From Liolophura sinensis (Eukaryota > Mollusca > Polyplacophora > Chitonida > Chitonidae), in the NCBI RefSeq assembly GCF_032854445.1, contig NC_088295.1, positions 4,590,501 to 4,654,500 on the forward strand: DNA of 64,000 nt, given 5' to 3'. Of this stretch, positions 13,959 through 63,665 are shown one piece after another. The translations under genes and the position numbers were made by a program. The notes below the pieces were generated by a model, which saw only the letters and a program-made list of their open reading frames with translations, was not told the DNA's origin and ran no database searches. Numbering within the stretch: the first letter of the stretch is position 1; the number at the start of each line of letters is the position of its first letter.

Positions 13959-16900
13959 ATGGCTTTGTCGACGATTGAGCATTTAATTCTTCAAGCAAGG
14001 TGACTTCAGCACGCTTGGACGTGGTATTACGATTCACTAAGAGTGAGGGACAGAAAGGAATAAACAGAAAATTTGCGAAACCAAAACAATGACATTTGAC
14101 ACTAAAGTTACTCGGCCTATGTTTATCACAATCATTTATAAGTTTACGCCCACTTCCTCCATCCTTATGGTGCTTATGAGGATGAATTTAATTCGGTTTT
14201 ATTTTCAGCGTAAAGAATGCTTATTCCCTCTGTACAGATTTCTTTTTGACAAAGGCGTTCTTTACACATATCGAGTTTAATTCTGACGAGAAATCAGTTC
14301 CGGTACCGGTACATGTTATTGTTAGGGAAGCAGTAATTTGATGTGTATCAAAATGGTTCTTATTAATTCATTCACTAACGACTGAAGTCATACTAAAAAA
14401 ATTTAAACATGACTGAAAGGGCACAAAATATATAGGAAGCTAATTAATATGCCTTGCCTAAAGATCGATGGATGTATTAAAGTTTAAGAGGAAGAAATAA
14501 TGAATAAATGTTATGCATGTATGTGGCGGAATTAATGCAAGATCAACAGTATAACAGTCACAGAGAAACTGAAAGGAAGGAAGTGCATATGTAGGTTTTG
14601 GTAAAATTTATTTATACATTTTAACAATCAGAGATCTGGCCATCTGTGGGAAGGTCTGCTGCAAGCTGCAAATGTTCGTGAGTTTCCCCCGAACTTATCC
14701 CGGTTTCCTCCCTCCACAATCCAGGCCACGGTCATATAAGTGCAATATTCTTGATTACAGCGTGAGACACCAGTCAGATAAGTAACAATCAGAGATGGTT
14801 GAATAGGCAAAAGACTTGATACCTATGAATTACTGTGCATGTAGGCTATATATATATATATATTTTTTTCCAGGTCTATGCCACAAGATGAGATTGACAA
14901 GTTGTGTAATGTTGCCTTTGACACCTTCCATCAGTCTGATAAATCAGCAGATTGTAGCTTTGCACTGAGACAGTTAGTATTTATTCTGCAAGCTTCAACC
15001 ACAGAACCAAGGTCTGTATAGGTGGAGTGCTAGAATATATATGTACATGGCCCAATTAGCTACATATGCTTTTCCCAACTGTAACAACTGTCTCACATAC
15101 TTAAGGCATTTTGCACGCTACAATTTTTGCAGGCTTAAATTTGATTGTGTTAAACATGTTGAAGTAAACAATGAAAAATTGTGTACTATGCCCAAACCTT
15201 AACCTCTCCCAAGACATGCCCAGATTCAGTCTCTTCTCAGATACCTATTTGGTCACAGCACCTGTCTGCTCCCAACACCTTTTTTGTGATCAAAATGTTT
15301 ACTTTCTAGGCCACTCTGTAATGTGAATAAATGTTTTTGTTCTAAGACCAGCACCCTATCATCTACCTGGTAATTGAAAAATCTCATTATGTGCATGGCT
15401 AATGTAAGAACTGAAAATCTACTTTTGTTCAGTTTGGAATGTTAAAAGTCTGTCATAAAGACTGTCTATATGATTTATTTATTTATTTGATTGGTGTTTT
15501 ACACCGTACTCAAGAATATTTCACTTATGCGACGACGGCCATCATTATGGTGGGAGGAAACCAGGCAGAGCCTGGGGGAAACCCACGACCATCCGCAGGT
15601 TGCTGCCAGACCTTCCCACGTACAGCCGGAGAGGAAGCCAGCATGAGCTGGACTTGAACTCACAGCGACCGCATTGGTCTGAGGCTCCTGGGTCATTACG
15701 CTGAGCTAGTGCGCTAACCAACTGAGCCATGGAGGCCCCAACTTTCTATATGAGGTGTAGCACATGTAAGACATACATGATATGGCTAAAATTCAGCCAA
15801 TACTTACATGGTATAGGTGTTTGTTTTGACAGCCTTCCTAAGAAGCTAATTGGCTTAATGCTGCAGTCCCTGGGGTCCGGGAGGTCAGGCGTGAGCAAGA
15901 GGAAGCAGTGTGTGTTGTGTTCTGACCTCCTGCGGGAAGTGCTCCCTTCGGATGAGCTATCTCTACAGGATGGTCAAGCACCTCTCACCCCGAACAAAAG
16001 TGTGGAGTACTTGCCTCTGTATATCATACAGGTAACTGTCACCACACTGTGCATAATACAGGTAACTGTCACAGGTAACAGATGAGCTATCCCTCTCACC
16101 TCGAACAAAAGTGTGGAGTACCTGTCTCTGTATATCGTATAGGTTACTGTCAACACACTGTACACCATACAGGTAACTGTCACAGGTAACAGATGAGCTA
16201 TCCCTCTCACCTCGAACAAAAGTGTGGAGTACCTGTCTCTGTATATCGTATAGGTTACTGTCAACACACTGTAACTGTCAGCACACTCTACATCATACAT
16301 CATACAGGTAACTGTCAACACACTGTACACCATACAGGTAACTGTCAGCACACTCTACATCATACAGGTAACTGTCAGCACACTCTACATCATACAGGTA
16401 ACTGTCAGCACACTCTACATCATACAGGTAACTGTCAGCACACTCTACATCATACAGGTAACTGTCAGCACACTGTACACCATACAGGTAACTGTCAGCA
16501 CACTCTACATCATACATCATACAGGTAACTGTCAGCACACTCTGCATCATACAGGTAACTGTCAGCACACTGTACACCGTACAGGTAACTGTCAGCACAC
16601 TCTACATCATACATCATACAGGTAACTGTCAGCACACTCTGCATCATACAGGTAACAATCACAACATTCTACATCATACAGGTAACTGTCACAGGTAACA
16701 GATGAGCTATCCCTACATGATGCTCAAGCACATCTCACCTTGGACAAAAGTGTGGAGTACCTGTCTCTATATCGTACGGCTTACTGTCACCACACTGTAC
16801 ACCATACACGTAACTGTCACAACACTGTACATCATACAGGTAACTGTCACCACACTGTACATCATACAGGTAACTGTCACAACATTGTACATCATACAGG

Positions 16901-19900
16901 TAACATCCACATCAGTGTACATCATACAGGTAACTGTCACTGTCTCATCAGTGTACATCATACAGGTAACTGTCACTGTTACATCACTTCACATCATACA
17001 GGTAACTGTCACTGTTGCATCACTGTATATCATACAGGTAAGTGTCACTGTCGCATCAGTGTACATCATACAGGTAACTGTCACTGTCACATCAGTGTAT
17101 ATCATACAGGTTACTGTCACTGTCGCATCAGTGTACATCATACAGGTAACTGTCACTGTTGCATCAGTGTACATCATACAGGTAACTGTCACTGTCACAT
17201 CACTGTATATCATACAGGTAAGTGTCACTGTTGCATCAGTGTACATCATACAGGTAACTGTCACTGTTGCATCAGTGTACATCGTACAGGTAACTGTCAC
17301 TGTTGCATCAGTGTTTATGATACAGGTAACTGTCACTGTCGCATCAGTGTACATCATACAGGCATTTGTCACTGTTACATCACTACACATCATACCGGTT
17401 GTTGTCACTGTCACGTAAATTGTACTGATGTTAGCCATTCACATTTACCTGTCTGCAGATGTCATAGAGGATCATGATTAACTGTTGGTTCTCGATACTT
17501 GCACAAAAATCCACCTCAAATCAACGAGTGCAAGCAGAACTAAATTCATAAAATCACAACATGGCATTTACGTAAGATAGAGTGCTGAGTAAGTTTCCAT
17601 GATAATGCTATATGTATTTCTTGTGAGAAGTAGTTTGTTGAACTTACAGTGTGTAACCAGTGTGCCTTGTTGGGTTTACAGGGTCATGCTGAGGGTTGCC
17701 TTGACAAGATAGTTCCTTTTGCTTTACGGTAAGTCAGACAGCCATTCACATGTAGCTCTGAAATATATTTTCCTTTTAAGCAAGAAAAACATGATTTCCA
17801 AAAAATTGCAATTTTGAGAAGATTCAGAAAATAACTTAAACAAATTATTTGATTTTAACTTATTGTTTTCAGAAAACTTTATTCTACTGCTTTAGGACTC
17901 ACAGGGTATCCCATTTACACAAGTAATAATTACTTATCAGTTAATTTTAATTAATAATTTTAGATGGTTGACTGAGGAAAAGCTGGATTGTGATGTACAG
18001 AAAAAATTGTTCACTTTTCTGGTTGGTGTGGAAACTCTACACAGACATATGCTGTCAGAAGGTATGTTTACTTGCACCTCAATTTAACTTTTGAAAAAAG
18101 GTGAGAATCAGATTTATGTATTTACGTATTTCAGTTGGATGTTGATACCTGCATGGTGACATAACCACCTTCCAGGGTTTATCAATCATGAAGAATGTAG
18201 ACTAAGAGAATAAAAACACTTCATTTTTAGTAGGTAAATTAACACAAAATGGTATACATAATAGTTCTCCTTTATTCCAGTTGATGTCACAAGCATCAGT
18301 AAGAAAGCATCTGATTGGTTAATGAATGCTAGTTTGTACCAAGCCCCGAACCCCTACACATATAACCCATTCAAGAAAGATCATAGTCTGCCGGTGAATG
18401 AAATTGATGGTACTCCTTCTAGAAACTTCTTCTCTGTTCTTAACGTCGGTGAGTTGTCAACTAGATATTGTTAAATGATTAGACTAAAAGTAATCTACTG
18501 TAATGATATTTTATGATTATTATAAGTAACGCTTTCTAAAGCTACATCTTAAACTACATATCTACTTGTAGTTACATATAAAGATGGATGGGAGTGGTCT
18601 TGAAATCTCTAGGCTACATATCTACTTGTAGTTACATATAAAGATGGATGGCAGTGGTCTTGAAAGCTCTAGGCTACATATCTACTTGTAGTTACATATA
18701 AAGATGGATGGGAGTGGTCTTGAAACCTCTAGGCTACATATCTACTTGTAGTTACATATAAAGATGGATGGGAGTGGTCTTGAAAGCTCTAGGCTACATA
18801 TCTACTTGTAGTTACATATAAAGATGGATGGGGTTGGTCTTGAAAGCTCTAGGCTACATATCTACTTGTAGTTACATATAAAGATGGATGGGAGTGGTCT
18901 TGAAACCTCTAGGCTACATATCTACTTGTAGTTACATATAAAGATGGATGGGAGTGGTCTTGAAATCTCTAGGCTACATATCTACTTGTAGTTACATATA
19001 AAGATGGATGGGAGTGGTCTTGAAATCTCTAGGCTCGACAATCACATGAATGTTTTGCTTTAGTTTTATTAGCTTACAGTTGAAAACGTTTAGAACTCTT
19101 ATTTCTGTTTAATCATATTTTGACAGGCCAGTATTACACCGAGGATCAAGTATTAAATATCTTCACCTTTTCACTGCTGTACAAGTGGCTAAGTCATCCA
19201 AACACTGGCAAACAGCAGTCCCGGACTGTAACCCCAACAGGGGAGACAACCCACACTTCCACTATCTTCACCACCTTGGTGCCCAAAACAGTGGATTACT
19301 GCTTTCGAATTCTGGACCAGTGTGAAAGGAGTAAGTCACTGAGGATTTTGTCACTTTTGGGCTAAAGGAATTATTTATTCATTTAATTGGTTATTCAGGC
19401 CTATTTAGGCTAAAGTCTGGGGAAACTGCCACTCCTTGTCAGATATCTGACGAAGACAGTGGTTGTGGAAACTATAAATCTAGTTTAACTCTGTGGGTAA
19501 GTTAGTTGATTGTGGAAACTATAAATCTAGTTTAACTGTTAGGGTAATTTAGTTGATTGTGGAAAGTATAAATCTAGTTTAACTCTGTGGGTAAGTTAGT
19601 TGATTGTGGAAACTATAAATCTAGTTTAACTCTGTGGGTAAGTTAGTTGGTTGTGAAAACTATAAATCTAGTTTAACTGTTAGGGTAATTTAGTTGATTG
19701 TGGAAAGTATAAATCTAGTTTAACTCTGTGGGTAAGTTAGTTGGTTGTGAAAACTATAAATCTAGTTTAACTGTTAGGGTAAGTTAGTTGATTGTGGAAA
19801 GTATAAATCTAGTTAAACTCTCTGGGTAAGTTAGTTGGTTGTGAAAACTATAAATCTAGTTTAACTGTTAGGGTAAGTTAGTTGATTGTGGAAAGTATAA

Positions 19901-22900
19901 ATCTAGTTTAACTCTGTGGGTAAGTTAGTTGATTGTGGAAACTATAAATCTAGTTTAACTCTGTGAGTAAGTTAGTTGGTTGTGGAAACTATAAATCTAG
20001 TTTAACTCTGTGGGTAAGTTAGTTGGTTGTGGATACTGTAAATCTAGTTTAACTCTCTGGGTAAGTTAGTTGATTGTGGAAACTATAAATCTAGTTGAAC
20101 TCTGTGAGTAAGTTAGTTGGTGTGGAATAAGAGTAGATTCATATTCCATTTCATAAATAATGATTTGACTTTTGTCTTTTCAGAACCTAAAGTACCACAG
20201 GATTGTGATCTTCAGGATGCAGTAAGTGAAGTTACACACACACAAGTAGTAAAGTAGCACACACACACACACATATAAATCTACCTGTCTTGTGCAAATA
20301 CACAATATAGGGTCACTGCCAAAGCTACACCAAGTATTTTGTACCTGTTCAAATTGTCTAAAGCGTGTAATGTTTTGATTTTGATCTTTGTCTGTAAATC
20401 TGTTGACACTGTGTGTTGAAAGTGGTGAAGATTTTATTCCTTGTCTGAATGTCTGTTGACAATTTGTGTTGGAAGTGGTTAAGAATTTATCCTTGTCTGA
20501 ATGTCTGTTAAAGTGGTGAAGACTGTGACCCTTGTCTGTATATCTGTTGACAGTGTGTGGTGGAAGTGGTGAAGACTTGTTTGTCCTTGTTTGTATGTTT
20601 GTGGACATTATCTCTGGAAGTGTGAATATGTTGATATTTGTTTGTTTTCAGTGTCTATTTCCAGTGGTGAAGATTTTAATCCTTGTCTGTATGTTGTTGA
20701 CAGTGTGTGGTGGAAGTGGTGAACACTTGTCTATCCTTGTTTGTATGTTTGTATGTTTGTGGACATTATCTCTGGAAGTGTGAATATGTTGATATTTGTT
20801 TGTTTTCAGTGTCTATTTCCAGTGGTGAAGATTTTAATCCTTGTCTGTATGTTGTTGACAGTGTGTGGTGGAAGTGGTGAACACTTGTCTATCCTTGTTT
20901 GTATGTTTGTATGTTTGTGGACATTATCTCTGGAAGTGTGAATATGCTGATCCTTGTTTGTTTTCAGTGTCTATTTCCAGTGGTGAAGATTTTGATCCTT
21001 GTCTGTATGTTGTTGACAGTGTCTGTTGGAAGTGGTGAAAATTTTGGACCTTGTCTGTAAGATTGATCATGGACAGCTGTCTAAGGTGTTCCAGGAAATC
21101 AAACGCTTGTTTTCCCGACTGACACAGAAGGACACTCCTCCACGCATACTGCTGCAGATTCTTCAGTTCTTCTTAAACCACAGTAAGTTCTACTTCTGTG
21201 ACAATGTTTTTCCAGAGGGATATCATTTTACCTAGCAAACAAACCTCGTAACATCTTTTTAAGATCATCAAAACTCTAAGAATCAGGCAAGTGTGAAACT
21301 TTGTCATGGACAAAAATTTAAGAATGAAATATGACCTCAAGGCATGGCCATGTCACGATATCACGTAGTCTGCTCAGGACATGTACTTAGCTTTGTATTG
21401 TCTGTCCATGATGACAGTGGTGATATCATGTAGTCTGTTCAGGACATGTAATTAGCTTTGTATGGCCTGTCCTTGATGACACTGGTGATATTGCAGAGTA
21501 TGTTCAGGACATGTTATTGGCTTTGTATGGTCTGTCCATGATGACATTGGTGATATCACAGAGTATCTTCAGGACATGTAGTTAGCTTTGAATGGCCTGT
21601 CCATGATGACATTGGTGATATCACAGAGTCTGTTCATGATGATGTTTATTCTTTCCTCCCTTGTTGCCCCTGTCTTTTACAGGTGAAGAAGTTGTCTATG
21701 ACCCTCAGCAGGCCTATGACATGTACTTCGGTCACCTAATTTCACTACATTGTGGGAACGCGTCTGTGGCCTATGAAACTCTACAGTTTATAACAGATAA
21801 CTTGGAAACTCTGTGTTATAAGACAAATGTCCTTAGCAAATACTTTCCCAATATATTTAAGGTGAGTGTTGCTGCAGAAATCTGTTACTCTCTGGTATTA
21901 TTTATTTCATGCGTCAAATTTTCACGGAAAAGTAGAAAGACAGCTCACATGATTTCTGTATAATCTTGTGTTGTGGTTAGGTATTTCCATGGTGGGTATT
22001 CTTTTGTAATAACATGCCTTACTAGTTGCTATCCCATTGTTTTTGATATGCAGGTAGAAACAAAAAACAGACATCACTCAAGGTGTTAGCACAAAGTCTG
22101 ACATGTGACTTCATGACATTTGATTTAATCTTGCTATTGTTTAGTTATTTATTGTTATTTTCTAGTCTTCTCCTGTCAGTTTTCTTCTTATCCTCTGACC
22201 TTGTCTTGTTAGCCTGTGACCTTGTCTTGTTAACCTGTGACCTTTCTTGTTAGACTGATTTGTCTTGAATACACACTGACCTTGTCTTATTAGCTTGTGA
22301 CCTTTCTTGTTAGACTGACTTGTCTTGGATACACACTGACCTTGTGTTGTTAGCCTGTGACATTTCTTGTAAGACTAACTTGTCTTGGATACACGCTGAC
22401 CTTGTCTTGGATACACACTGACCTTGTCTTGGAAACACACTGACCTTGTCTTGGATGCACACTGACCTTGTCTTGGAAACACACTGACCTTGTCTTGGAT
22501 GCACACTGACCTTGTTTTGGATACACACTGACCTTGTGTTGTTAGCCTGTGACTTGTCTTGGATACACCCTGACCTTGTCTTGGATACACACTGACCTTG
22601 TCTTGGATACACAATGACCTTGTGTTGTTAGCCTGTGACTTGTCTCGGATACACTCTGACCTTGTTTTGGATACACACTGACCTTGTCTAGGATACACAC
22701 TGACCTTGTGTTGTGAGCCTGTGACTTGTCTCAGATACACTCTGACCTTGTCTTGGATACACATTGACCTTGTCTTGGATACACACTGACCTTGTGCTGT
22801 TGGCTTGTTGTTATATATCATGTATATGTATCTTCAAGATCCTAGCTTGGAATCCACGGTCTTTCATCTGTGAGATGATGGAGATTTTACCAGCTGTCAT

Positions 22901-25900
22901 GTCACCGGCATCAACTATTGAGGTAAAGTCTGTATTACAATTATGATAAACTTCAGAAAGTACTTTTCTTTACCATTCAATACTTTTATGCCAAACTGCA
23001 TGTACAGTATGCGCTAAAATACACTGGAGAGTGGCTAAAAGGAACAGATCACCGTCAAATTTGTTCATTTCCAGGTGTTTCATGCTTTGCTGGATCTGCC
23101 ATGTATCTGCGCTGCCTTGGAGGTATCTGAGAGAGCTCTGAAAGGGGAGAGCACTCCAGCTCAGACTCCAGCGCAAGGTGGTGAGCTGACCTCATTGGAA
23201 GCATACAGAGACCCCCTCTACAATTTGATGTTCAAGTTCGTGATGAGGGTGGAAGGTGGTTGTGGGGATACAATCAGCAGGTGGAAACATTATGTTATTA
23301 ATGAACAAAATCTTTGTGCTCAATTGCCATTTATCATCATGACTGTCAATTGGTTTACATACGTTTACAGCCATTGAGTTAACACTAACACCCTACATTC
23401 ATAATATATATCCCTATATTATTTTCCCAGGTTATAATGCCAACTGACTGTTGTGTTTCAATTATTATTGCAGGTTGAAGGACTTACATGACATCCTTCA
23501 TGACATGTGTAACAGCCCACGTGTGGTTGTGTGTGGACAGGTAGTTCCTGTGCTGCTCAGGTGAGGACTTACATGACATCCTGTGTGACAGGTGTAACAG
23601 ACTCTGTGTGGTTGTGTGTGGACAGGTAGTTCCTGTGCTGCTCAGGTGAGGACTTACATGACATCCTGTGTGACAGGTGTAACAGACTCTGTGTGGTTGT
23701 GTGTGGACAGGTAGTTCCTGTGCTGCTCAGGTGAGGACTTACATGACATCCTGTGTGACAGGTGTAACAGACTCTGTGTGGTTGTGTGTGGACAGGTGGT
23801 TCCCGTACTGCTCAGGTGAGGACTTACGTGTACATGACATTCTGTGTGACAGGTGTAACACACTCTGTGTGGTTGTGTGTGGACAGGTGGTTCCCGTACT
23901 GCTCAGGTGAGGACTTACATGTACATGACATCCTGTGTGACAGGTGTAACAGACTCTGTGAGGTTGTGTGTGGACAGGTGGTTCCCGTACTGCTCAGGTG
24001 AGGACTTACATGACATTCTTCATGACAGGTGTAACAGACTCGGTGTGGTTGTGTGTGGACAGGTAGTTCCTGTGCTGCTCAAGTGAGGACTTACATGACA
24101 TTCTTCATGACAGGTGTAACAGACTCTGTGTGATTGTGTGTGGACAGGTGGTTCCCGTACAGCTCAAGTGAGGACTTACATGACATTCTGTGTGACAGGT
24201 GTAACAGCCCACGTGTGGTTGTGTGTGGACAGGTGGTTCCCGTACTGCTCAGGTGAGGACTTACATGTACATGACATCCTGTGTGACAGGTGTAACAGCC
24301 TCTGTGTGGTTGTGTGTGGACAGGTAGTTCCTGTACTGCTCAAGTGAGGACTTACATGTACATGACATCCTGTGTGACAGGTGTAACAGCCTCTGTGTGG
24401 TTGTGTGTGGACAGGTGGTTCTTGTACTGCTCAGGTGAGGACTTACATGTACATGACATCCTGTGTGACAGGTGTAACAGCCTCTGTGTGGTTGTGTGTG
24501 GACAGGTGGTTCCCGTACTGCTCAGGTGAGGACTTACATGTACATGACATCCTGTGTGACAGGTGTAACAGACTCTGTGTGGTTGTGTGTGGACAGGTGG
24601 TTCCTGTGCTGCTCAGGTGAGGACTTACATGACATCCTGTGTGACAGGTGTAACAGACTCTGCATGATTGTGTGTGGACAGGTAGTTCCCGTACTGCTCA
24701 GGTGAGGACTTACATGACATTCTTCATGACAGGTGTAACAGAATCTGTGTGGTTGTGTGTGGACAAGTAGTTCCTGTGCTGCTCAAGTGAGGACTTACAT
24801 GACATTCTTCATGACAGGTGTAACAGACTCTGTGTGGTTGTGTGTGGACAGGTGGTTCCCGTACAGCTCAAGTGAGGACTTACATGACATTCTTCATGAC
24901 AGGTGTAACAGACTCTGTGTGGTTGTGTGTGGACAGGTGGTTCCTGTACTGCTCAAGTGAGGACTTACATGACATTCTTCATGACAGGTGTAACACACTC
25001 TGTGTGGTTGTGTGTGGACAGGTAGTTCCTGTGCTGCTCAAGTGAGGACTTACATGACATTCTTCATGACAGGTGTAACAGACTCTGTGTGATTGTGTGT
25101 GGACAGGTGGTTCCCGTACTGCTCAGGTGAGGACTTACATGACATTCTTCATGACAGGTGTAACAGACTCTGTGTGGTTGTGTGTGGACAGGTGGTTCCC
25201 GTACTGCTCAAGTGAGGACTTACATGACATTCTTCATGACAAGTGTAACAGACTCTGTGTGGTTGTGTGTGGACAGGTGGTTCCCGTACTGCTCAGGTGA
25301 GGACTAACATGACATTCTTCATGACAGGTGTAACAGACTCTGTGTGGTTGTGTGTGGACAGGTAGTTCCTGTGCTGCTCAAGTGAGGACTTACATGACAT
25401 TCTTCATGACAAGTGTAACAGACTCTGTGTGGTTGTGTGTGGACAGGTGGTTCCCGTACTGCTCATGGTGAGGACTAACATGACATTCTTCATGACAGGT
25501 GTAACAGACTCTGTGTGGTTGTGTGTGGACAGGTGGTTCCCGTACTGCTCAAGTGAGGACTTACATGACATTCTTCATGACAGGTGTAACAGACTCTGTG
25601 TGGTTGTGTGTGGACAGGTAGTTCCCGTACTGCTCAGGTGAGGACTTACATGTACATGACATCCTGTGTGACAGGTGTAACAGACTCTGTGTAGTTGTGT
25701 GTGGACAGGTAGTTCCTGTGCTGCTCAGGTGAGGACTTATGTGTACATGACATCCTGTGTGACAGGTGTAACAGCCTCTGTGTGGTTATGTATGAACAGG
25801 TAGTTCCTGTACTGCTCAGGTGAGGACTTATGTGTACATGACATTCTTTATGACAGGTGTAACAGCCTCTGTGTGGTTTTGACAGGACCTGTAGTTCCTG

Positions 25901-28900
25901 AACTGCTCAGGTGACTACTTACATGACATCCTGTGTGACAGGTGTAACAGCCCACGTGTGGTTGTTTGTGGACAGGTGGTTCTTGTATTGCTAAGGTGTG
26001 AACTTACATGACATCCTGTGTGACAGGTGTAACAGCCCACGTGTGGTTGTTTGTGGACAGGTGGTTCTTGTATTGCTAAGGTGTGAACTTACATGACATC
26101 CTGTGTGACAGGTGTTGCAGCCCTCTTGTGGTTTTGTGTTTACATCCAGAAAAGATATCTCAACTTCAGATTTAATACTCTTTGCTTATTCTAATCTGTT
26201 CATGGTTTGCTCACTGCTTATGATGTTTTTGCTGTTTGTTCTTGTTTTCACCAGGGTATTTTTCACAGTTATTGGTGAGGAGGGGGATGAGAAATTAGCC
26301 AATCAGATGTTCCCTGTGATACTGGAGAGAACAGGACTGTTGTACGAGATTCCAGAGTACCAGATAGATGTCAGAAGGTAAAACTGCACTGTCTTCCATC
26401 TCCACTTATCTGCCATGCATTATCTTGAACAAGACTATATTGAACACTTGTGCTTCTGTAAAATACATTAAAGAGAAGGTATCATATTTAGTGTCAGTTT
26501 CAAAGTGATATACTGTATGCATAGTAAAACATGTATATTGCAGAGTATAAACTTGTTTGTACAGACAGGTAAAAGTATGTTTTGTTCCTGATATACATTA
26601 CTGTTTCGGTAGGAATAGGAGTACCGTATACATTGTGGGTACACAGCAATATGAGCCAACCTCTTTTGGTGTATATACATGTAAGAATATGTATAATGAC
26701 GTCTTACTTTGTTTGCAAATGCAGTGTGGATTTCGGATTGATGTCAGATTTCTGATTCAAACTCTGTTTTTGTTGGTGTGGTTTTCAGACTCTTGGCTGA
26801 AAGTGTGTATCAACTGTTCAGAGCCTACCCTAGTCTGGTGGTTGACCAGTACACCGAGATCATGGAGTATATCATGTCTACGAGGAACATCACACACAAG
26901 GAGCGTCTCTTCTCTCACCTGGTAAATACATGACTCGGCACAGGTAGAATTACAAACACCCACACACAAGAGTACAGAGATCATGGAGTACAAGGAACAT
27001 CACACACAAGGAGCGTCTCTTCTCTCACCTGGTAAATACATGACTCAGCACAGGTAGAATTACACACACCCACTCACAAGAGGGGTATGCCATGATAAGA
27101 GATGTTCCCCTGAGATGATCTCTATATACCTGTGTCAATGGTTTACACCTGTGTATGCCTCTCTGTTTGGACAGGTGTGGGGTATAGGTGAATACTGCTC
27201 CAACAGCCATGATAAGAGATGTGACCCTGAGATGATCTGTACATACCTGTGTCAATGGTTTACACCTGTGTTTGCCTCTCTGTTTGGACAGGTGTGAGGT
27301 ATAGGTGAATACTGCTCTAACAGCCATGATAAGAGATGTACCCCTGAGATGATCTGTATATACCTGTGTCAGTGGTTTACACCTGTGTATGCCTCTCTGT
27401 TTGGACATGTGTGGGGTATAGGTGAATACTGTTCTAACAGCCATGATAAGAGATGTACCTCTGAGATGATCTGTATATACCTGTGTTTGGACAGGTGTGG
27501 GGTATAGGTGAATACTGCTCCAACAGCCATGATAAGAGATGTGACCCTGAGATGATCTGTACATACCTGTGTCAATGGTTTACACCTGTGTTTGCCTCTC
27601 TGTTTGGACAGGTGTGGGGTATAGGTGAATACTGCTCTAACAGCCATAATAAGAGATGTTCCCCTGAGATGATCTGTATATACCTGTGTCAGTGGTTTAC
27701 ACCTGTGTATGCCTCTCTGTTTGGACATGTGTGGGGTATAGGTGAATACTGTTCTAACAGCCATGATAAGAGATGTACCTCTGAGATGATCTGTATATAC
27801 CTGTGTCAATGGTTTACACCTGTGTATGCCTCTCTGTTTGGACAGATGTGGGGTATAGGTGAATACTGCTCTAACAGCCATGATAAGAGATGTGACCCTG
27901 AGATGATCTGTATATACCTGTGTCAGTGGTTTACACCTGTGTATGCCTCTCTGTTTGGACAGGTGTGGGGTATAGGTGAATACTGATCCAACATCCATGA
28001 TGCGAGATGTATCCCTGAGATGATCTGTATATACCTGTGTTTGGACATGTGTGGGGTATAGGTGAATACTGTTCTAACAGTCACAATAAGAGATATACCC
28101 CTGAGATGATCTGTATATACCTGTGTCAATGGTTTACACCTGTGTATGCCTCTCTGTTTGGACAGGTGTGGGGTATAGGTGAATACAGCTCTAACAGCCA
28201 TGATAAGAGATGTACCCCTGAGATGATCTGTTACACCCGAGTCAATGGTTTACACCTGTGCATGCCTCTCTGTTTGGACAGGTGTGGGGTATAGGTGAAT
28301 ACTGCTCTAACAGCCATGATAAGAGATGTACCCCTGAGATGATTTGCAAGTATTACGAGGCTCTGGAGGCACTGACATACGAGATTTCAGGGATGGTTCA
28401 GTCAGCACCCAGCGAGGAGCTCAGCTCTTTCTCACCCAGACTCGTCACCATCTTGTTATCAGCACTGGCTAAGGTATGTATATAATGTTATTTTTGAACA
28501 GCTCAACTTTAAATTTCTGGACAAAGTTATTGGAATTAAATTCTCTAATGATTTGCATTACTCATTAGTCAGGCTTCTGCAGTGCATGTGTAATTTCGCT
28601 GAACTAAGTATATGTAACAATTAATCTGTGTAAAGCCTTTATGTCTTCCCAGCCAGCTACACAATCTTATGATTCCATTGAATGTAAAGCCACCGATTTT
28701 TCCCCAGATGGTCATTTGATATCTTGAGGCATGATAACAAACATTATAAAGCTTCCATAATTTCTCAGTTGTTGTTTTAGTGCTTCCATCATTTACCAGC
28801 AACCTGCAAAAAATCACTGTACACAGAGATGACAGTCTGGAATCCAGTTCTTGCTGGTTCAGCTGTGGCTTTAAGTCAGGAGGCTCAGGGCAGTGGTGTA

Positions 28901-48200: not shown

Positions 48201-50796
48201 TCATGCGGCAAACCTTTTGTCCAGCTGTAAATTAATTCTATGCATCTCTTCTTCACCTTTTCTGTTGTTCGGTCAGCTAAATACTAAACATAGACAAATG
48301 ATGTCAACTCTGTAAATGGTATAAAAGTATACATATCTTATCATAGTAAACATTTTCCAACACCATCATGTTTTATGTATTTCTTTATTTTTTGTGGGGT
48401 TGTAGGCCATTTATACAACAGTCATCTGTTTATAGTTTAAGAGTGAAGGAAATCAGGCGGAGGCTGCAGAAAAGCACTGCCCTTTGCCAAGAACCTTACC
48501 AACCAGCTGATTTAAAACAGCTGCTTACATACAGATATGTATAAACATTAACTTACCTTTGGTGATACAACTTTGATCATTTCATTTAGAAATCTGAACT
48601 TCCCAACTTCCTGATGAAATCTACGACCACAATTCTTCACACATGATTCTACTGTCTAAAACAGACACAGAAAAACTGTGAAAGCATGGGCAAAAATCTA
48701 GTCACTCACAGCACATCAAAGTTTGTAAAACAATGGACAACACCTACATAAAGAATATCAAAGGCTGAGCAGAAGCAGAAAACTGTCAAAAACCTGTTTA
48801 AAGTACATCATATCTAGCAATTCAGAACTGAAATAGGGAATCTTCTGATTGTTGCTATTTAAACAAGACAATTGAAGGATGTCTTTAGCTATGGCCATGT
48901 TTCATACTCAGATTATTTTCAGATATTTACATGAATGGACTGGAAGATCTTCGAGACCTTTCCTCTTCCCAGCCTATACACCCAGTCTTCACAAATAATC
49001 TACGAACACAGCAGTCCTGGATGCCCAGTACTCCCTGGCCAATGTTCCCTAGTGCAGATCACTCAGCTAGTGAGCGTGGCCTATTCTTACATTAGCTGGC
49101 CGATGCTCTACAGAACATATATGCTGTAAATGACCTAAATTGTCATTCACCACTAAGTTCCTCATTTGGTCTGATGAGGAGAGTTCTATTCAATTCACAG
49201 TTTGGGGTTTTCTGGAGGTAATGTAGAATGATATTCTACTGGAAATATGTTCAATTTTGCTGCAGAAATTTACATCATTAAACTCAAGTTAAAGGAGACT
49301 CACTGATAGGGCATACAGAGCCTCTCGCTCCTGAGGGGACTGGATTTTGTGAGCCAGTAAACGGATGGCTATCTGTGGTCCTTCCAGCTCTTTGTTGACC
49401 TGGTCACAGAAACTGATGATGAACTCCCAGTCTTCCTCCCGATTGGCAGGGTTTGTGGCTTTATCTGTCCCACAGAAAACAACAAACAGATAATCAACTA
49501 TCACCCAGCTATTTCTACTCTACTAATGAATAGCTCACATATATGATGAAGGTCTGTGGCTGGAGGAAATACAATGGAGGCTGGTAAGGGGATATCAGCA
49601 CCCTTCACCATGTGGAGTTAACTTATTGGTATCCCTTACAAAATACATGTACATCACTTGATCGCTATCTCATGTGTACTGCTCACCATTTGACCAGTAG
49701 GTTTAATACAGAATATTGAATACTATATATGTGTAGATCCATGTCTCTAGATACAAGTACCTGTAGCAGTGTAGATGTGCAGATCAAGTACATTTATAAT
49801 GACCTGTTTGCCTTGATGGAGAACAAACATGTAGCCCAATGAATATTTTCTGGTCCCACCATTTACACTACTATTTTACAGTGCAATTGGCTGACCGAAA
49901 GCAAGTGCTTTAATAATATATGTGAGATATATTACCATTTTAAAGTGCAAATTCACAAAATGATGTGCGCATGCAACTATCAATTGCAAATGCATCACTG
50001 CGAATCTATGGGAGAAGCCCTGGAATACATGTATCTATTCTGGTTATTAAAAAGTTACATTACATTTGCTTCTGACAGTCAGTCTACTACTTCTGCAAGC
50101 TTAATGTCTATTATTTTAAACCGAATGCATTCCATCAGTTTTGTAATAAATTTGTAGTTCTCTACATTAAATGACTCTCCTCAAAATGAGTTATCCCTCA
50201 CTTAGTCTATTGTCATATAATATGCATATTCTTCAGAAATCTTCGGTGTTACACCTGACTACTTTACTTTAATAGATACTTTTAGCAATCAGAACATAAA
50301 AATAGGTGGTAACTTTAAAGAGGGCAACGCAGATGTACTCCAGGTTGAAACTCATTCACTCTGACTCTGGTGTGCGAATTTTTCGGGTAGGGTGTTTTTA
50401 AAAAAAAAGCCGTTTATTTCATAAATGCGTTAATCGTATTAATTATTGCACATGATACGCATTTAACAAACTCATAGAGGCATACGACCACAAATTTTAC
50501 AAGGGTTGAAACCAGTTAACCGGCTTTTGAAATGATACAGCTTCAGTTGAGATGAAGAATTGATCAGATCACTGATTGTCATGAAGTGTGGCGTGAAACC
50601 GGCAGCAAGTGTCAGTGATAGCGAAGTAAGATGTTTCTAAACTAGTCCATAACACATGGCGAACGGCATAGCCTTTGTTATGTCTTAGCTGTTATTTTAA
50701 CGATGAATGATGAGTCAGCTACATACATACGGGAAGATATGAGTATTTTTACATACTTAGCAGAGATTCCAGGCTCTCCTCCCCAACGTCCGCCAT
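33236..50796 (-). CDS. GGA: GGA-type ARF-binding clathrin adaptor, complete, 17 coding exons
   Basis: Golgi-localised, gamma-ear-containing ARF-binding protein, sorting mannose 6-phosphate receptor-type cargo from trans-Golgi to endosomes. Exons in transcript order: 50796-50757, 49464-49304, 48655-48557, 48283-48125, 44681-44616, 43666-43586, 41718-41584, 40789-40705, 38895-38803, 38386-38261, 37359-37241, 36789-36714, 36302-36137, 35802-35543, 35121-34958, 34320-34210, 33328-33236. Joined: 2034 nt, 677 aa. The VHS domain covers about residues 8-153 (NKATNPANREEDWEFI, LLAHKIQSPQEREAL, KFRFLNEMIKVVSPKYL, AYQMLKNQGIVKVDP). GAT covers about 180-300 (LARLLKSKHPEDLQAANRLI, KRINELETINNNVKVLEDML). 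The hinge (about 300-555) has a clathrin-box-like LLDLTF at 313-318 and DVLGQALLQQNLP. The gamma-adaptin ear (about 556-677) contains AYDKNGIKIVFHFAKGRP, TFQAAVPKTMKVKLQPPS and ITQVMLLANPQKEKVRLKFKL. Vertebrates have three GGAs; I cannot say which one this matches best. The exon 7 donor GTTGGT is weak, and the exon 11 donor GTACGT was chosen to keep frame. Confidence 0.94.
33414..33542 (-). other. Candidate alternative exon in the last GGA intron
   Basis: On the minus strand, CATTTCAG/GAAGACAGCACTATACG opens a frame of 42 codons (EDSTIRVHGNVFAFEPATRH... ending KQTAEC then TAG at 33414). A donor-like GTTAGT follows position 33419, making a 124-nt cassette. As a cassette it would shift frame; as a terminal exon it would replace the final ear strands. 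I do not recognise the peptide. Confidence 0.3.
34408..34625 (-). mobile_element. MetaSINE-like copy, 5' truncated
   Basis: The plus strand reads TTATTTATTTGATTGGTGTT, then GGTTGCTGCCAGACCTTCCC and GAGAGGAAGCCAGCATGAGC, the same element as at 15473-15738. The tRNA-like head is cut off at about 34615, just where the exon 15 donor array starts. It lies in GGA intron 15. Confidence 0.82.
34626..34957 (-). repeat. Donor-seeded minisatellite at GGA exon 15, about 53-bp unit
   Basis: On the minus strand exon 15 ends TTCCAGGCAGCTGTGCCTAAG/GTAAGACAGCAAGC. The plus-strand unit GATGGGGCTTGCTGTCTTAC plus CTTGGGCACAGCTGCCTGGA plus AGGTCAATGTTTT copies the last 30 or so coding bases and the donor. About six copies run from 34630 to the exon; at least four keep the GTAAGA donor. 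Confidence 0.92.
40374..40704 (-). repeat. Donor-seeded minisatellite at GGA exon 8, 48-bp unit, seven copies
   Basis: On the minus strand exon 8 ends GATAGTGGTGGAATCA/GTAAGTAGATCTTC. The 48-bp unit repeats the last 14 exon bases (TAGTGGTGGAATCA) with the donor and 34 intron bases. Copies are almost identical; the variable bases turn GTAAGTAGA into GTAAATAAA in some, so donor strength alternates. The unit is 16 codons long, so a plus-strand frame stays open by repetition only. Confidence 0.93.
40838..41275. repeat. 39-bp minisatellite, eleven copies, GGA intron 7
   Basis: The unit contains AAATATCTGAGATGGTAACT and TCCATCAAGGTCAGAGGAC. It is 13 codons long and open on both strands throughout. 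It ends about 50 bp before the exon 8 acceptor at 40790, without including the exon. Confidence 0.92.
41745..43395. repeat. Large minisatellite, about 57-bp unit with 395-bp higher-order repeat, GGA intron 6
   Basis: The units contain CAGATAAACATGTCACACAT, TCATACAACCAACATTCCCA and AGGTGAACAACACTGGT. The block from about 41975 reappears almost unchanged at about 42370, a period of about 395 bp. The array starts about 30 bp upstream of exon 7 (41718) and covers about 1.65 kb. Confidence 0.9.
43934..44158 (-). mobile_element. MetaSINE-like copy, near complete
   Basis: On the plus strand, ATTTATTTACTTATTTGATT starts the tail and GCGTTAACCAACTGAGCCAC ends the tRNA-like head. An internal piece of the core (the CCGGGCAGAGCC region) is shortened. 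A run of about 17 G follows at 44182-44198. It lies in GGA intron 5. Confidence 0.83.
44735..44830. repeat. Three-copy repeat of about 34 bp
   Basis: ATGAGAGTATATCCAACAGA followed by AAAAATC occurs three times in GGA intron 4, about 50 bp upstream of the exon 5 acceptor. Confidence 0.85.
45063..46526. mobile_element. Possible non-autonomous hAT-like DNA element
   Basis: The left end reads CAGGGTTCATACAGG and the right end GACTGTTTGCACCCTG, giving short imperfect inverted ends CAGGGT/ACCCTG. The subterminal regions are mirrored: TTTCAAGGAGTTTTCCAGGAG on the left, CAAGGAGTTTCCAGGAG and TTTCAAGGAATTTCATGG on the right. The flanks share TCAACC. No transposase frame is present. It lies in GGA intron 4. 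Confidence 0.42.
46795..47007 (-). mobile_element. MetaSINE-like copy, 5' truncated, long (TTTA)n tail
   Basis: The plus strand shows seven ATTT repeats followed by GATTGGTGTTTTACGCCGTA and AGCCCGGGGGAAACCCACAA. It stops in the B-box region (ACTTGAACTCACAGCGACCG). It lies in GGA intron 4. Confidence 0.85.
47030..47110. repeat. Short tandem repeat, about 18-bp unit
   Basis: CCATAAACATCAGTCACA repeats about four times directly after the SINE. Confidence 0.8.
47280..47640. repeat. Degenerate repeat, roughly 60-bp period
   Basis: Variants of GACAAATCTTCTCTATAAAAGTGTTGACA recur about six times with considerable drift in GGA intron 4. Its age appears greater than that of the exact arrays. Confidence 0.6.
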
Positions 50797-55370: not shown

Positions 55371-55372
55371 CA

Positions 55373-57530: not shown

Positions 57531-57534
57531 CACT

Positions 57535-59255
57535 TTCACACAGAATTCTGGATCTGTGACACTGTCACACAGGATACACATGTTGTAGTGACACTGTCAC
57601 ACAGAATACACATGTGCTAGTCACACAGGATACACATCTTGTAGTGACACTACCACACAGAACAAACATGTGGTAATGACACAGTCACACAGGATACACA
57701 TGTTGTAGTGACACTGTCACACGGAATACACATGTGCTAGTCACACAGTCACACAGGATACACATATTGTAGTGGCACTACCACACAGAACAAACGTGGT
57801 AGTGACACAGTCACACAGGATACACACGTGGTAGTGACATTGTCACACAGGATACGCATGCTGTAGTGACACTGTCACACATAGATACGCATGTGGTAGT
57901 GACATAGTCACACAGGATACACATGTTGTAGTGACACTGTCACACATGATACATGTGGTAGTGACACTGTCACGCAGGATACACAGGTGGTAATGACACT
58001 GTCACACAGGATACACATGTGGTAGTGACACTGTCAGACAGGATACATGTTGCAGTGATACTGTCACACAGGATACACATGGTAGTGACACTGTCACGCA
58101 GGGTTCACATGGGATAATGACAGTCACACAGGATACACATGTAGTGACACTGTCACACAGGATACACATGTCATATTGACACTGTCAGACAGGATACATA
58201 TGTGGTAGGGACACTTTCACACAGGATACACAAGTGGTAGTGACACAATCACACATGATACACATGTAGTGACACTGTCACACAGGATACACATGTCATA
58301 GTGACACTGTCAGACGGAATAGACATGTGGTAGTGACACAGCCACACAGGATACACATGTAGTAGTGACACTGTCACACAGGATGCATGTGGTAGTGACA
58401 TTTTCACACAGGATACACATGTGGTAGTGACACTGTCACACAGGATACACATGTGGTAGTGACACTGTCACACATGATACACGTGGTAGTGACACTGTCA
58501 CGCAGGATACACAGGTGGTAATGACACTGTCACACAGGATACACATGTGGTAGTGACACTGTCAGACAGGATACATGTTGCAGTGATACTGTCACACAGG
58601 ATACACATGGTAGTGACACTGTCACGCAGGGTTCACATGGGATAATGACAGTCACACAGGATACACATGTAGTGACACTGTCACACAGGATACACATGTC
58701 ATATTGACACTGTCAGACAGGATACATATGTGGTAGAGACAATTTCACACAGGATACACAAGTGGTAGTGACACAATCACACATGATACACATGTAGTGA
58801 CACTGTCACACAGGATACACATGTCATAGTGACACTGTCAGACGGAATAGACATGTGGTAGTGACACTGTCACACAGGATACACATGTAGTAGTGACATA
58901 GTCACACAGAACAAACATGTGGTAGTGACATTTTCACACAGGATACACATGTGGTAATGACATTGTCACACAGGATACACATGTGGTAGTGACACTGTCA
59001 CACAGGATACACATGTGGTAGTGACACTGCCACACAGGATACACATGTGGTAGTGACACTGCTACACAGGATACACACTTAGTGACACTGTCACACAGGA
59101 TGCATGTGGTAGTGACACTGTCACACAGGATGCATGTGGTAGTGACACTGTCACACAGGATACATGTGGTAGTGACACTGCCACACAGGATACACACGTA
59201 GTGACACTGTCACACAGGATACACACGTAGTGACACTGTCACACAGGATATACAT
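57535..59255. repeat. Large minisatellite, about 32-36 bp unit, 1.7 kb
   Basis: The unit is close to CACACAGGATACACATGTGG plus TAGTGACACTGT, with many copies. A block of about 0.4 kb starting near 57950 reappears near 58478 with the same private variants (CACGCAGGATACACAGGTGG, ATGTTGCAGTGATACTGTC, GGTTCACATGGGATAATGAC), showing a segmental duplication inside the array. It lies downstream of the CCDC82-like stop codon, so it may be in its 3' UTR. Confidence 0.92.
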
Positions 59256-59379
59256 GTTGTAAAACCGCATACTATAACTGCCATGTAAGTACTCCATTTA
59301 CCATTATTCTATCTGCCAGAAATAGAGAGCATGCACTATGACTTGAATGAATCATGAGTTTGTGACATCCTGAATGAAC

Positions 59380-59705
59380 TCACACAAATGATACATGTAC
59401 ATGTGATAATGTAAAACATCTGGTGTAATGCTAAGGTGTCCTATGTGTAAAACTACAAGTGCATGTGCACTGCAAACAATCTAATTACACAAATGATACA
59501 TGTACATGTGATAATGTAAAACATCTGGTGTAATGCTAAGGTTTCATATGTGTAAAACTAACAAGTGCATGTATGCACTGCAAACAATCTAATTACACAA
59601 ATGATACATGTACATGTGATAATGTAAAACATCTGGTGTAATGCTAAGGTTTCCTATGTGTAAAACTACAAGTGCATGTATGCACTGCAAACAATCTAAT
59701 TTGTA
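59380..59705. repeat. Three-copy tandem repeat of about 105 bp
   Basis: CACAAATGATACATGTACAT to GCACTGCAAACAATCTAATT occurs three times with few differences. It ends less than 20 bp from the CCDC82-like stop codon (59718-59720), so it starts the 3' UTR. Confidence 0.92.
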
Positions 59706-59717
59706 TTTAATTCTGAG

Positions 59718-62700
59718 TCATTTCCAATGGTCCTTCTCATCAACGTATGAATCTGCGTTCTTCAGAAGATCTTCCAACTCTTCCCTCAGCTGTATAAACA
59801 AATAAAGTATAATCAAAACTTTTTACATCTGAAGCAAACAGTTTTCAAGTATACACATTATGTTTTATTTTCCAGATAACATTTTCACAAAAACAGAAAG
59901 AGCACTATTAACAAGCCGTCCGTTACCTTTGTTTTCCATTGGGAATTGCTCATACACTGATCAAAGATATCCTTATCATCTTTGTTAAGCTTGCATTCCT
60001 TCACCTGGTTTACCTGTCAAATATTAATAGACAGAGCATGAAGGTAGTTATAATCAGAGCCATGCAGAGCATTCAGAAAATACTGAGATACAGAAAATTC
60101 AGATTCACCAATTCGGCAGTCAGTAAAATCAAAGGTTTTTTCAACTTATTAAAGAATTTATTAATATCTAGAACAAAGAGCTTATCAGAACTTGGAAACT
60201 AATAGTACCGTCCAGACATACATTTTCGTGGTGCTCACATTTTCACATCAATGAAAATAAACGAACATTTTGAACGAGATGAATTGGATTATGTGAATCA
60301 AAAGTAATTTAAATTGGTAAATTTATGCTGTAGAATGTAGTATGTTCAGCAGTAATTTTTACTTTGAAGGCTCCGCTTCTTCTGGTTTTGTGCTCAAAGT
60401 GTTAATGAAACGAAAACCAATGAGGCAATGCTAACAGATAAGTGTGGTTTTCGCGTGAGATGACAGGCCTTTGACCACTCTGACTAAATAATTCTACATT
60501 CAAAACTTGAATTCAAGACAAACATACCTTCATTTTACACTTCTGTAGAATTTGGTATCTGTAATGGTTCAGTTGATGGTGATATGAACTTCTCTTGGCA
60601 CAGAACCTTCCCAGTTTAAATACCTCAGGGATATCTCCAATCACCTTGACAGACAGACAGACAGACAGACAGAAAGGTTAACATGCATGTTGACAGTCCA
60701 AATTCTACACACTCCCTCCAATTCTAGGTGGACAGATAAGCAGTAAACCTGACAACCATTCATTTTAATGATCTTGTTCTCCTCACATTCTCGTTTGCTT
60801 TTACACTGGTGCAATGCCCCTTTCATTCTATTTTCACGCCCCTGTAATGTGAGCTCACATGTAATTTTCATTTTACACTTCTCTAACCCATCTCTGTGTT
60901 ACTGTACTTTTACCCTTCTCTAACCCACCTCTGTGTTACTGTGGTCCTACCCTTCCCTCACCCACCTCTGTGTTACTGTGGTCTTACTCTTCTCTAACCC
61001 ACCTCTGTGTTACTGTGGTCCTACCCTTCTCTCACCCACCTCTGTGTTACTGTGGTCTTACTCTTCTCTCACCCACGTCTGTGTTACTGTGGTCCTACCC
61101 TTCTCTCACCCACGTCTGTGTTACTGTGGTTTTACTCTTCTCTGACCCACCTCTGTGTTACTGTGGTCTTACCTTTCTCTGACTCACCTCTGTGTAACTG
61201 TGGTTTTACCCTTCTCAGACCCACCTCTGTTTTACTGTGGTCCTACCATTATCTGACGCAAATCTCTGTTATGTGGTCTTACCTTCCCTGACCCACCTCG
61301 ATGTTACTGTGGTCTAACCCTTCTCTGACGCACCTCTGTGTTACTGTGGTCTTACCCTTCTGTCACCCACCTCTGCACTACTACACTTTTATCATTCTCT
61401 AGCCCACCTCTGAACTACTGTAGTTTTATCATCCTCTAGCCCACCTCTACACTACTGTAGTTTTATCATCCTCTCGCCCACCTCAGTGCTACTGTAGTTT
61501 TATCATTCTCTACCTCACCTCTGTACTACTGTAGTTTTATCATCTTATAGCCCACCTCTGTACTACTGTAGTTTTATCATCCTCTAGCCCACCTCAGTGC
61601 TACTGTAGTTTAATCATTCTCTACCTCACCTCTGTACTACTGTGGTTTTATCATCTTATAGCCCACCTCAGTGCTACTGTAGTTTTATCATTCTCTACCT
61701 CACCTCTGTACTACTGTAGTTCTATCATCCTGTAGCCCACCTCAGAACACCTGTAGTTTTATCACCCTCTAGCTCACCTCAGTACTACTGTAGTTTTATC
61801 ATCCTTTAGCCCACCTCAGTACTACTGTAGTTTTGTCACCCTCTAGCTCAACTCAGTACAACTGTAGTTTTATCACCCTCCAACCCACATCAGTACTACT
61901 GTAGTTTAATCATCCTCTTGCCCACCTCTGTATTACTGTAGTTTTATCATCCTCTAGCCCACCTCTGTACTACTATAGTTTTCCTATCTAATAGCCCACC
62001 TCAGTACTACTGTAGTTTTATCATCCTCTAGCCCACCTCAGTACTACTGTAGTTTTATCATTCTATACCTCACCTCTGTACTACTGTAGTTTTATCATCC
62101 TCTTGCCCACCTCTGTATTACCGTAGTTTTATCATCCTCTTGCCCACCTCTGTATTACTGTAGTTTTATCATTCTATACCTCACCTCTGTACTACTGTAG
62201 TTTTATCATCCTCTCGCCCACCTTTGTACTACTGTAGTTTTATCATCTTCTAGCCCACCTCAGTACTACTGTAGTTTTATCATCCTCTAGCCCACCTCTA
62301 TACTACTGTAGTTTTCTCATGTTATAGCCCACCTCAGTACTACTGTAGTTTTATCATTCTCTACCTCACCTCTGTACTACTGTAGTTTTATCATCCTCAA
62401 GCTCACCTCAGTACTACTGTAGTTTTATCACCCTGTAGCTCACCTCAGTACTACTGTAGTTTTATCATCCTCTAGCCCACCTCAGTACTACTGTAGTTTT
62501 GTCACCCTCTAGCTCACCTCAGTACAACTGTAGTTTTATCATCCTCTAGCTCACCTATGTACTACTGTAGTTTTATCATTCTCTACCTCACCTCTGTACT
62601 ACTGTAGTTTTATCATCCTCCAGCTCACATCTGTACTACTGTAATTTTATCATCCTCTAGCTCACCTCAGTACTACTGTAGTTTTATCATCCTCTAGCCC

Positions 62701-63665
62701 ACCTCAGTACTACTGTAGTTTTATCATCCTCTAGCCCACCTCAGTACTACTGTAATTTTATCATCCTCTAGCTCACCTCTACACTACACTAGTTTTATCA
62801 TCCTCTAGCCCACCTCAGTACTACTGTAGTTTTATCACCCTCTACCTCACCTCAGTACTACTGTAGTTTTATCACCCTCTAGCTCACCTTAGTACTACTG
62901 TAGTTTCATCACCCTCTACCTCACCTCTGTACTACTGTAGTTTTATCATCCTCTACCTCACCTCTGTACTACTGTAGTTTTATCACCCTCTAGCTCACCT
63001 CAGTACTACTGTAGTTTTATCACCCTCTAGCTCACCTCAGTACTACTGTAGTTTTATCATCCTCTAGCCCACCTCTACACTACTGTAGTTTTATCATCCT
63101 CTAGCCCACCTCTGTACTACTATAGTTTTATCATCCTCTAGTTCACCTCTACACTACACTAGTTTTATCATCCTCTAGCCCACCTCAGTACTACTGTAGT
63201 TTTATCATCCTCTAGCCCATCTCTACACTACTGTAGTTTTATCATCCTCTAGCTCACCTCTACACTACTGTAGTTTTATCATCCTCTGGCCCACCTCAGT
63301 GCTACTGTAGTTTTTTCATCCTCTAGCCCACCTCAGTACTACTGTAGTTTTATCATCCTCTAGCTCACCTCTGTACTACTGTAGTTTTATCATCCTCCAG
63401 CCCACCTCAGTATTACTGTAGCTTTACCATCCTCTAACCCACCTCTGTACTACTGTACTTCTACTCTAACCTACTGTACCTCTTTATACACATGCATAAC
63501 TTTTCGGACAATGATGTTAGAACTGACCATAGGCCTTTCCTGTGAGCTGTCATCTTCATTGCTGTTGTCATCTTCATTGTTCACCTCTGCCAGAGTCTCA
63601 GGGTCATACCACTGCCCGGTAAAGGTGCACTTTTTTGAGTAAGGATGATCTTGCAGCTTACACGC
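59718..63665 (-). CDS. CCDC82-like protein with DUF4211 domain, C-terminal four exons (partial)
   Basis: Exons in transcript order: 63665-63480, 60644-60528, 60013-59927, 59789-59718, all phase 0, giving 153 residues and a TGA stop. The first exon reads ACKLQDHPYSKKCTFTGQWY, with an acidic NEDDNSNEDDSS stretch. The second reads VFKLGRFCAKRSSYHHQLNH then YRYQILQKCKMK. The last two are VKECKLNKDDKDIFDQC and LREELEDLLKNADSYVDEK. This matches the C-terminal DUF4211 region of vertebrate CCDC82 in order ([53 protein letters not shown]). The Cys pair and a GR(I/F)CA motif are kept. The function of this family is poorly known. The 5' part lies beyond the window. The first exon could instead end at 63501 (donor GTTATG, 55 codons); GAG/GTACAG at 63480 is the better site. 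The second exon's acceptor follows a CTGT microsatellite. Confidence 0.85.
60645..60673 (-). repeat. (CTGT)n microsatellite acting as polypyrimidine tract
   Basis: The minus strand reads CTGTCTGTCTGTCTGTCAAG/GTGATTGG. The tetranucleotide run occupies the place of the polypyrimidine tract before the exon at 60644. Confidence 0.75.
60870..63479. repeat. Very large minisatellite, about 38-bp unit, 2.6 kb, abutting a splice donor
   Basis: The plus-strand unit is CCTCAGTACTACTGTAGTTT plus TATCATCCTCTAGCCCAC, about 65-70 copies. From 60870 to about 61370 a sister unit CTCTGTGTTACTGTGGTC plus TTACCCTTCTCTCACCCAC dominates. On the minus strand the array begins at the donor of the exon 63665-63480 (AAAGAG/GTACAGTAGG), and the GTACAGTAG string is part of every unit. 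It fills most of the intron between the first two visible CCDC82-like exons. Confidence 0.93.

Follow-up and report, generated by a model that had tools for sequence, protein, structure and literature searches.

Mirage-type minisatellites recur on splice junctions in genes of the chiton Liolophura sinensis

A 64,000-nucleotide stretch of the genome of the chiton Liolophura sinensis (contig C1:4590501-4654500, taken from NC_088295.1 and called the window below) carries eight minisatellite arrays, six in the gene AP5Z1 and two in GGA, whose repeat units contain a real splice junction of the gene in which they lie. The pattern was not confined to the window, as 13 of the 98 arrays found in 41 other gene regions also spanned a predicted junction. 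The observation is real and recurrent, and it is mostly explained by minisatellites of the type called mirages in amphioxus, in a repeat-rich chiton genome that would tolerate them. We put at roughly three in four the probability that the arrays are ordinary, locally born, mirage-type minisatellites that are tolerated, their number at junctions reflecting the density of arrays times the number of junctions, together with an excess at splice donors. This excess is modest and still insecure.

Junction-spanning arrays in the window

The genome analyzed comprises 609,464,459 bases in 632 contigs, with 96,433,062 bases in C1. Tandem Repeats Finder (TRF) returned 90 rows for the window, which merged into 35 arrays covering 32% of its length. 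Eight of these overlapped exon-intron junctions (Table 1), six at donors and two at acceptors, with 14 to 62 exonic bases in each array. The original prediction, made from the sequence alone, had named seven such arrays together with a two-copy case at AP5Z1 exon 15, and comparison of the TRF arrays with the exon models bore this out for all eight. The authentic exon-intron boundary lay within the repeat unit every time, which is the defining feature of a mirage. The prediction also placed the genuine junction in the edge unit of its array, and in all eight arrays the exon-attached junction copy did lie at the edge. This regularity is forced by geometry, because the original junction stays on its exon when copies are added into the intron. 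A further array, at a CCDC82-like exon, had been described as abutting a donor. Its edge was found at 63457, some 22 bp into the intron from the inferred donor (63480/63479), so that the donor is adjoined by the array and not contained in it.

The AP5Z1 exon 3 array began with 111-bp copies holding the exon end and its donor, followed by 30/36-bp units of the form CATACAG/GTAACTGTC. The extra junction copies, here called decoys, kept the GT in 29 of 31 cases in this array (16296-17299), and in 8 of 14 cases at exon 17. Exon 13 is only 33 nt long and is mostly contained in the 85-bp repeat unit. Its edge copy has a poor donor (ACAT/GTGTAA), which was taken as the true one since the reading frame is preserved with it. 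All 30 scored decoys of this array retained GT and outscored the edge donor, and their use would add 85 bp per copy and break the frame. By eye, the exon-like part of the units across 23474-26139 is also preceded by CTCAG and followed by a donor, giving the array the look of about 30 pseudo-exon copies of about 31 nt.

AP5Z1 was annotated manually, and its 17 exons with GT-AG ends joined into a single, stop-free frame. The other exon models came from a predictor. Its first version called 1,197 exons, which was over-calling, and a stricter version was substituted. At the setting used, this version nevertheless placed 51 exons in the AP5Z1 stretch, many of them within arrays, and we dropped unanchored calls that lay at least half within arrays or scored below 7. 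The predictor recovered 15 of the 17 AP5Z1 exons exactly; this is not an independent score, as the codon table and the initial splice matrices included AP5Z1.

Table 1. Gene bodies and arrays at splice junctions in the window (positions count from its first base)
Feature	Position	Strand	Details
AP5Z1 gene body	14874..29904	+	exons 2-18 annotated (17 in all); model lacks the first and last exons
AP5Z1 exon 3 donor array	15981..17412	+	TRF gives two arrays (15981-16273, 16296-17412); exon end 16031; 51 exonic bp
AP5Z1 exon 9 acceptor array	20377..21059	+	158-bp unit and subunits; TRF; exon start 21020; 40 exonic bp
AP5Z1 exon 13 donor array	23479..26139	+	85-bp x 31; TRF; exon 23474-23506 in frame; 28 exonic bp
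AP5Z1 exon 15 donor duplication	26879..27082	+	110-bp, two copies; TRF; exon end 26921; 43 exonic bp
AP5Z1 exon 16 acceptor array	27089..28343	+	117-bp (and 86-bp) units; TRF; exon start 28282; 62 exonic bp
AP5Z1 exon 17 donor array	29232..29747	+	32-bp x 16; TRF; exon end 29252; 21 exonic bp
GGA gene body	33265..49464	-	16 annotated exons (gene prediction); Pfam VHS and Alpha_adaptinC2 (adaptin C-terminal, GAE)
GGA array, donor of exon 34958-35121 (exon 15 of the original prediction)	34627..35004	-	53-bp x 7; TRF; 47 exonic bp
GGA array, donor of exon 40705-40789 (exon 8 of the original prediction)	40379..40718	-	48-bp x 7; TRF; 14 exonic bp
CCDC82-like exon array	60881..63457	-	37-bp x 70; TRF; adjoins donor only

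Recurrence in other gene regions

Outside the window we hand-picked 41 gene regions from Pfam hits (myosin, kinesin, dynein heavy chain and adaptin domains) without consulting repeats. Together they held 298 kb, 589 predicted junctions and 98 arrays. The first blind sample consisted of 36 regions (266,700 bases, 543 predicted junctions, 81 arrays), one of which, L010, was retained partly for its nearness to the window. All 12 arrays flagged as junction-spanning in this sample were read individually. An 18-bp x 2.2 array in L006 was dropped as weak and mostly exonic, leaving 80 arrays, and the exon end in L021 was shifted from 226 to 187, the array spanning the junction either way. After this reading, 11 of the 80 arrays spanned predicted junctions, eight at donors and three at acceptors. 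Several cases left no doubt; in L004, for instance, a donor of a myosin gene carried nine near-identical 121-bp copies, and another donor, in L006, carried eighteen copies of 31 bp.

The second sample comprised five regions (31,600 bases) at kinesin hits left over from the first and lying no more than 1.5 Mb from a scaffold end, and was chosen for the array density there. Its 18 arrays gave one donor and one acceptor case at 8-bp overlap, and two of each at 4 bp. Junctions of both kinds were duplicated, with six donors and two acceptors in the window and nine donors and four acceptors in the blind samples. The donor case in L041 is weak, since the donor was not kept in its other copies. The claim that the pattern recurs held beyond the region for which it was made. 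Junctions within arrays amounted to about 2% of the predicted junctions in the sampled genes (13/589) and to 9% in the three window genes (8/90).

The region near the window, L010 (C1:4561000-4570999), lies about 20-30 kb from it and contains a kinesin gene. Tandem arrays make up 68% of this region, and a 44-bp x 28 array sits on an exon acceptor.

Array density and local origin

Array coverage was lower the farther a sequence lay from its scaffold end (Spearman -0.69, P 2.7e-6; 37 sequences, being the 36 regions and the window). With the second sample included, the mean coverage was 27.5% within 6 Mb of scaffold ends (20 sequences) and 4.7% farther in (22 sequences). The window, 4.6 Mb in from the end of its scaffold, belongs to the distal, repeat-rich part of scaffold 1. 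The many junction hits could be largely attributed to this density of arrays near scaffold ends, together with tolerance, and the recurrence in AP5Z1 and GGA would mainly be the product of array density and junction density in this part of the scaffold.

The unit of the AP5Z1 exon 3 array, the only one searched genome-wide, gave 15 hits at up to three mismatches, all at its own locus, and the array was therefore born from local sequence. A dispersed satellite was considered as a source and rejected. An assembly artifact is also unlikely. The HiFi reads of the published Liolophura japonica assembly average 8,347 bp (PMC11068029), which exceeds the 2.7 kb of the largest window array, and the copies are imperfect.

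These features are consistent with a simple course of events. Each array would begin as a short tandem duplication. Where the duplication straddled a splice junction, all extra copies would come to lie on the intron side. The exon-attached copy would be held by coding and splicing selection, and the other copies would be free to drift and to expand as decoys. If the splicing machinery keeps using the exon-attached copy, this continued use may be the reason that the arrays are tolerated and not removed.

Comparison with random placement

To form a chance expectation, each array was collapsed to one founder unit, which was placed randomly in its own region; placements wholly within an exon or engulfing an exon were excluded. 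The main rule took as founder the smallest period with a score of at least 60% of the best. In the blind sets (98 arrays), donors were spanned in 9 cases against 3.20 expected (P 0.0036), acceptors in 4 against 3.28 (P 0.42) and either junction in 13 against 6.48 (P 0.009), the last expectation ranging from 5.5 to 8.3 across founder rules. At 8-bp overlap, the donor expectation was 2.7 when the shortest period was taken as founder (P 0.001) and 4.1 with the best-scoring period (P 0.02). The window test used the 20 of the 35 arrays that lie within the three annotated gene spans, with 90 junctions. The exon 3 array was entered as two, one of them spanning, and GGA exon 36404-36502 was left out (score 1.2). 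Here, 8 arrays spanned a junction against about 4.0 expected (P 0.017), with 6 donors against 2.09 (P 0.0085) and 2 acceptors against 1.94. Donors are hit about two to three times above the random-founder rate, and acceptors at the chance rate.

The original prediction had stated that chance placement would not give such arrays. This was too strong: random founders alone give about 4.0 spanning arrays against the 8 of the window genes and 6.48 against the 13 of the blind sets. The excess is modest and sits at donors, and acceptors were hit as chance predicts. The enrichment at exon edges that it called for, sought in the 41 regions and the window, was likewise present at donors and absent at acceptors, and the donor signal was modest and weakened when single regions were left out.

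Several observations weigh against an added preference for junctions. The donor excess depended on the settings, the combined blind donor P ranging from 0.001 to 0.06 over all those tried. Under the longest-unit rule, leaving out one region at a time brought the donor P to 0.09 at worst, and to 0.28 when arrays had to have units of 15 bp or more and at least 2.9 copies; at the latter setting, the worst value for the first sample was 0.11. The second sample alone had no excess (2 against 1.7-2.1 expected). The exons outside AP5Z1 are predicted ones. In a cruder control with shifted points, 13 array edges lay at junctions against a mean of 14.1, and 199 of 300 shifts reached at least 13, which argues against strong nucleation. 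That control was poorly matched, since the unit was not required to reach the point, and a matched local control was then built from intron points 60-500 bp from junctions. In this control, which does favor a donor excess, arrays spanned 3.05% of 295 donors, 1.36% of 294 acceptors and 0.96-1.87% of the nearby intron points. Taken together, there is probably a real but modest excess at donors above a high background.

Chance combined with tolerance might suffice by itself, with a minisatellite-rich genome in which junctions are hit according to their share of the sequence and without any preference. We regard this as a credible reading, though somewhat improbable. The acceptor counts and the rise of array coverage toward scaffold ends agree with it, and the overall excess shrank to 13 against 8.3 (P 0.06) under the longest-unit founder rule and to 13 against 10.9 in the local control. 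However, leave-one-out runs apart, none of the founder rules, overlaps and copy numbers tried on the combined blind set took the donor P above 0.06, and the donors of the window genes were in excess as well. These results suggest either that mutation favors 5' splice sites or that, on a raised background, duplicated donors are selected against less strongly than duplicated acceptors.

The first of these could take the form of a mutational hotspot, in which some feature of the donor (U1 binding, R-loops or polymerase pausing) promotes tandem duplication. Before the second sample, donors outnumbered acceptors by 14 to 5 (two-sided P 0.064). The surroundings of donors and acceptors were nearly equal in GC content (0.416 and 0.402) and GC skew (0.103 and 0.104), so base composition does not explain an excess at donors only, and GC content was rejected as its driver. 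The GC content of the arrays themselves was 0.44 when they spanned a junction and 0.40 when they did not, and that of introns was 0.36. However, the second sample gave donors and acceptors at 1:1 or 2:2. Moreover, sense-strand donor motifs were not in excess in the 42 non-spanning arrays (sense higher in 12, antisense higher in 15), and the motif alone therefore does not attract arrays. We consider such a hotspot unlikely. The broader proposal, that donor sites are birthplaces of minisatellites throughout the genome of this animal, with arrays starting at 5' splice sites through duplication linked to transcription or splicing, is also doubtful.

Decoy copies and their conservation

We examined 254 decoy splice sites in 19 junction arrays (8 from the window and 11 from the first sample). 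Decoys with a score at least equal to that of the true site numbered 140, by matrices built from these genes. Of these, 79 were identical to the true site over the scored letters and 61 scored higher, including the 30 at AP5Z1 exon 13 and 17 at L010.

Such numbers raise the possibility that selection keeps the extra copies as spare or alternative splice sites. The GT or AG was kept in 209 of the 254 decoys, and in 12 of the 15 arrays with at least five copies, conservation of the core dinucleotide slightly exceeded that of the remaining unit. There is also a human precedent in IFI6, where downstream minisatellite units are reported to serve as donors (PMC4526556). However, the difference in conservation was small (0.027) and not significant (P 0.073). 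In the acceptor array of L014, AG was absent from 24 of 25 decoys, GT was missing from 6 of 14 at AP5Z1 exon 17, and only 4 of the 19 arrays had a unit length divisible by three. Because the dinucleotide is only slightly more conserved than its unit, selection for spare splice sites finds no firm support, and we hold this explanation to be very unlikely.

The exon-attached copy was at least as near to the consensus as the interior mean in 11 of the same 15 arrays and below it in 4 (mean difference +0.041, P 0.048). A founder at the exon edge would give this pattern, in line with the local, mirage-type origin preferred here. With a true splice site standing beside a row of near-copies, each array is a natural experiment on splice-site choice.

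Relation to known systems

The kind of array described here is already known from amphioxus and from single human cases, and what is new is its recurrent occurrence in a mollusc. In amphioxus, tandem repeats lie across exon-intron boundaries of Adh3 and of globin genes, where reverse transcription PCR showed that splicing was normal, and also of troponin C (TnC) and PGBD5 (PMC3087553, PMC3902484). The chiton arrays share several features with these mirages (Adh3, BflGb6, BflGb9, troponin C, PGBD5). The unit spans the exon-intron boundary, both donor and acceptor kinds exist, and many decoys carry splice signals. The AP5Z1 frame is open when the exon-attached copies are used. The systems differ in that the chiton is a mollusc, with up to about 30 copies per array and six affected junctions in one gene, and in that its arrays were sampled over 41 other gene regions against a chance model. 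The boundary units of BflGb6 are reported to escape homogenization, a property that is not strictly defining of mirages. In the present set, the exon-attached copies of the chiton are on average nearer to the consensus, not farther from it. The chiton arrays bring the amphioxus phenomenon into a distant phylum, and a possible preference of new tandem repeats for donors becomes open to testing.

Two human loci are comparable. The IFI6 (6-16) minisatellite supplies several splice donors (PMC4526556, which cites Turri 1995) and resembles the chiton donor arrays in this respect, but it is a single locus in which use of downstream units leads to isoforms. In CBS, a 31-bp variable number tandem repeat is listed at the boundary of exon 13 and intron 13 (PMC1395315), and differs as a single polymorphic locus. 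The one molluscan hit is a TSSK1-like gene of abalone, whose intron 3 holds a 27-bp minisatellite of variable length that is not described as lying on a junction (PMC6905558). The open-licence literature yielded no report of junction-spanning arrays in molluscs and no genome-scale count; subscription papers were mostly not covered.

The original prediction had linked the arrays to intron gain or intron sliding through duplication of AGGT segments. In its favor, several units contain AG/GT, the duplicated segment carries a splice signal as in the tandem genomic duplication model (PMC3443670), and the route has been proposed for amphioxus mirages (PMC3087553) and, in the former paper, for intron gain generally. 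In that model, however, two copies of the segment provide the donor and the acceptor of the new intron, whereas the chiton arrays hold only one junction of the intron. The partner splice site lay outside the array in all eight window cases, hence the intron does not owe its origin to the array, and in none of the eight were donor and acceptor found in two copies of one duplicated segment. The link was rejected, and we consider it extremely improbable.

Genes and other repeats

The window contains AP5Z1 on the plus strand, GGA and a WD-repeat gene on the minus strand, and, tentatively, the CCDC82-like exon. The Pfam models TPR_AP5Z1, SPG48 and TPR_AP5Z1_C matched 7 of the 10 open reading frames scanned for AP5Z1. 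The DUF4211 match of the CCDC82-like exon was weak and below the cut-off. The WD-repeat gene is presumably that of the dynein intermediate chain DNAI2; its beta-propeller matches were weak.

An AP5Z1 intron (19463-20127) holds a 47-bp array whose unit has a sense-strand, donor-like GTGG/GTAAGT. No exon was found there, and the array may be a relic. A dispersed repeat of about 285 bp, resembling a short interspersed nuclear element in appearance, occurs at 15466-15750, with more copies at 46814-47010, 34411-34617 and 43929-44157. Partial or full copies were present in most of the 41 sampled loci, including six matches in L003. Elsewhere in the genome, myosin-head matches fell in very long open frames at C3:10775981-10779943 and C8:10565775-10571210 (1,339 and 1,870 aa), which are possibly intron-poor copies.

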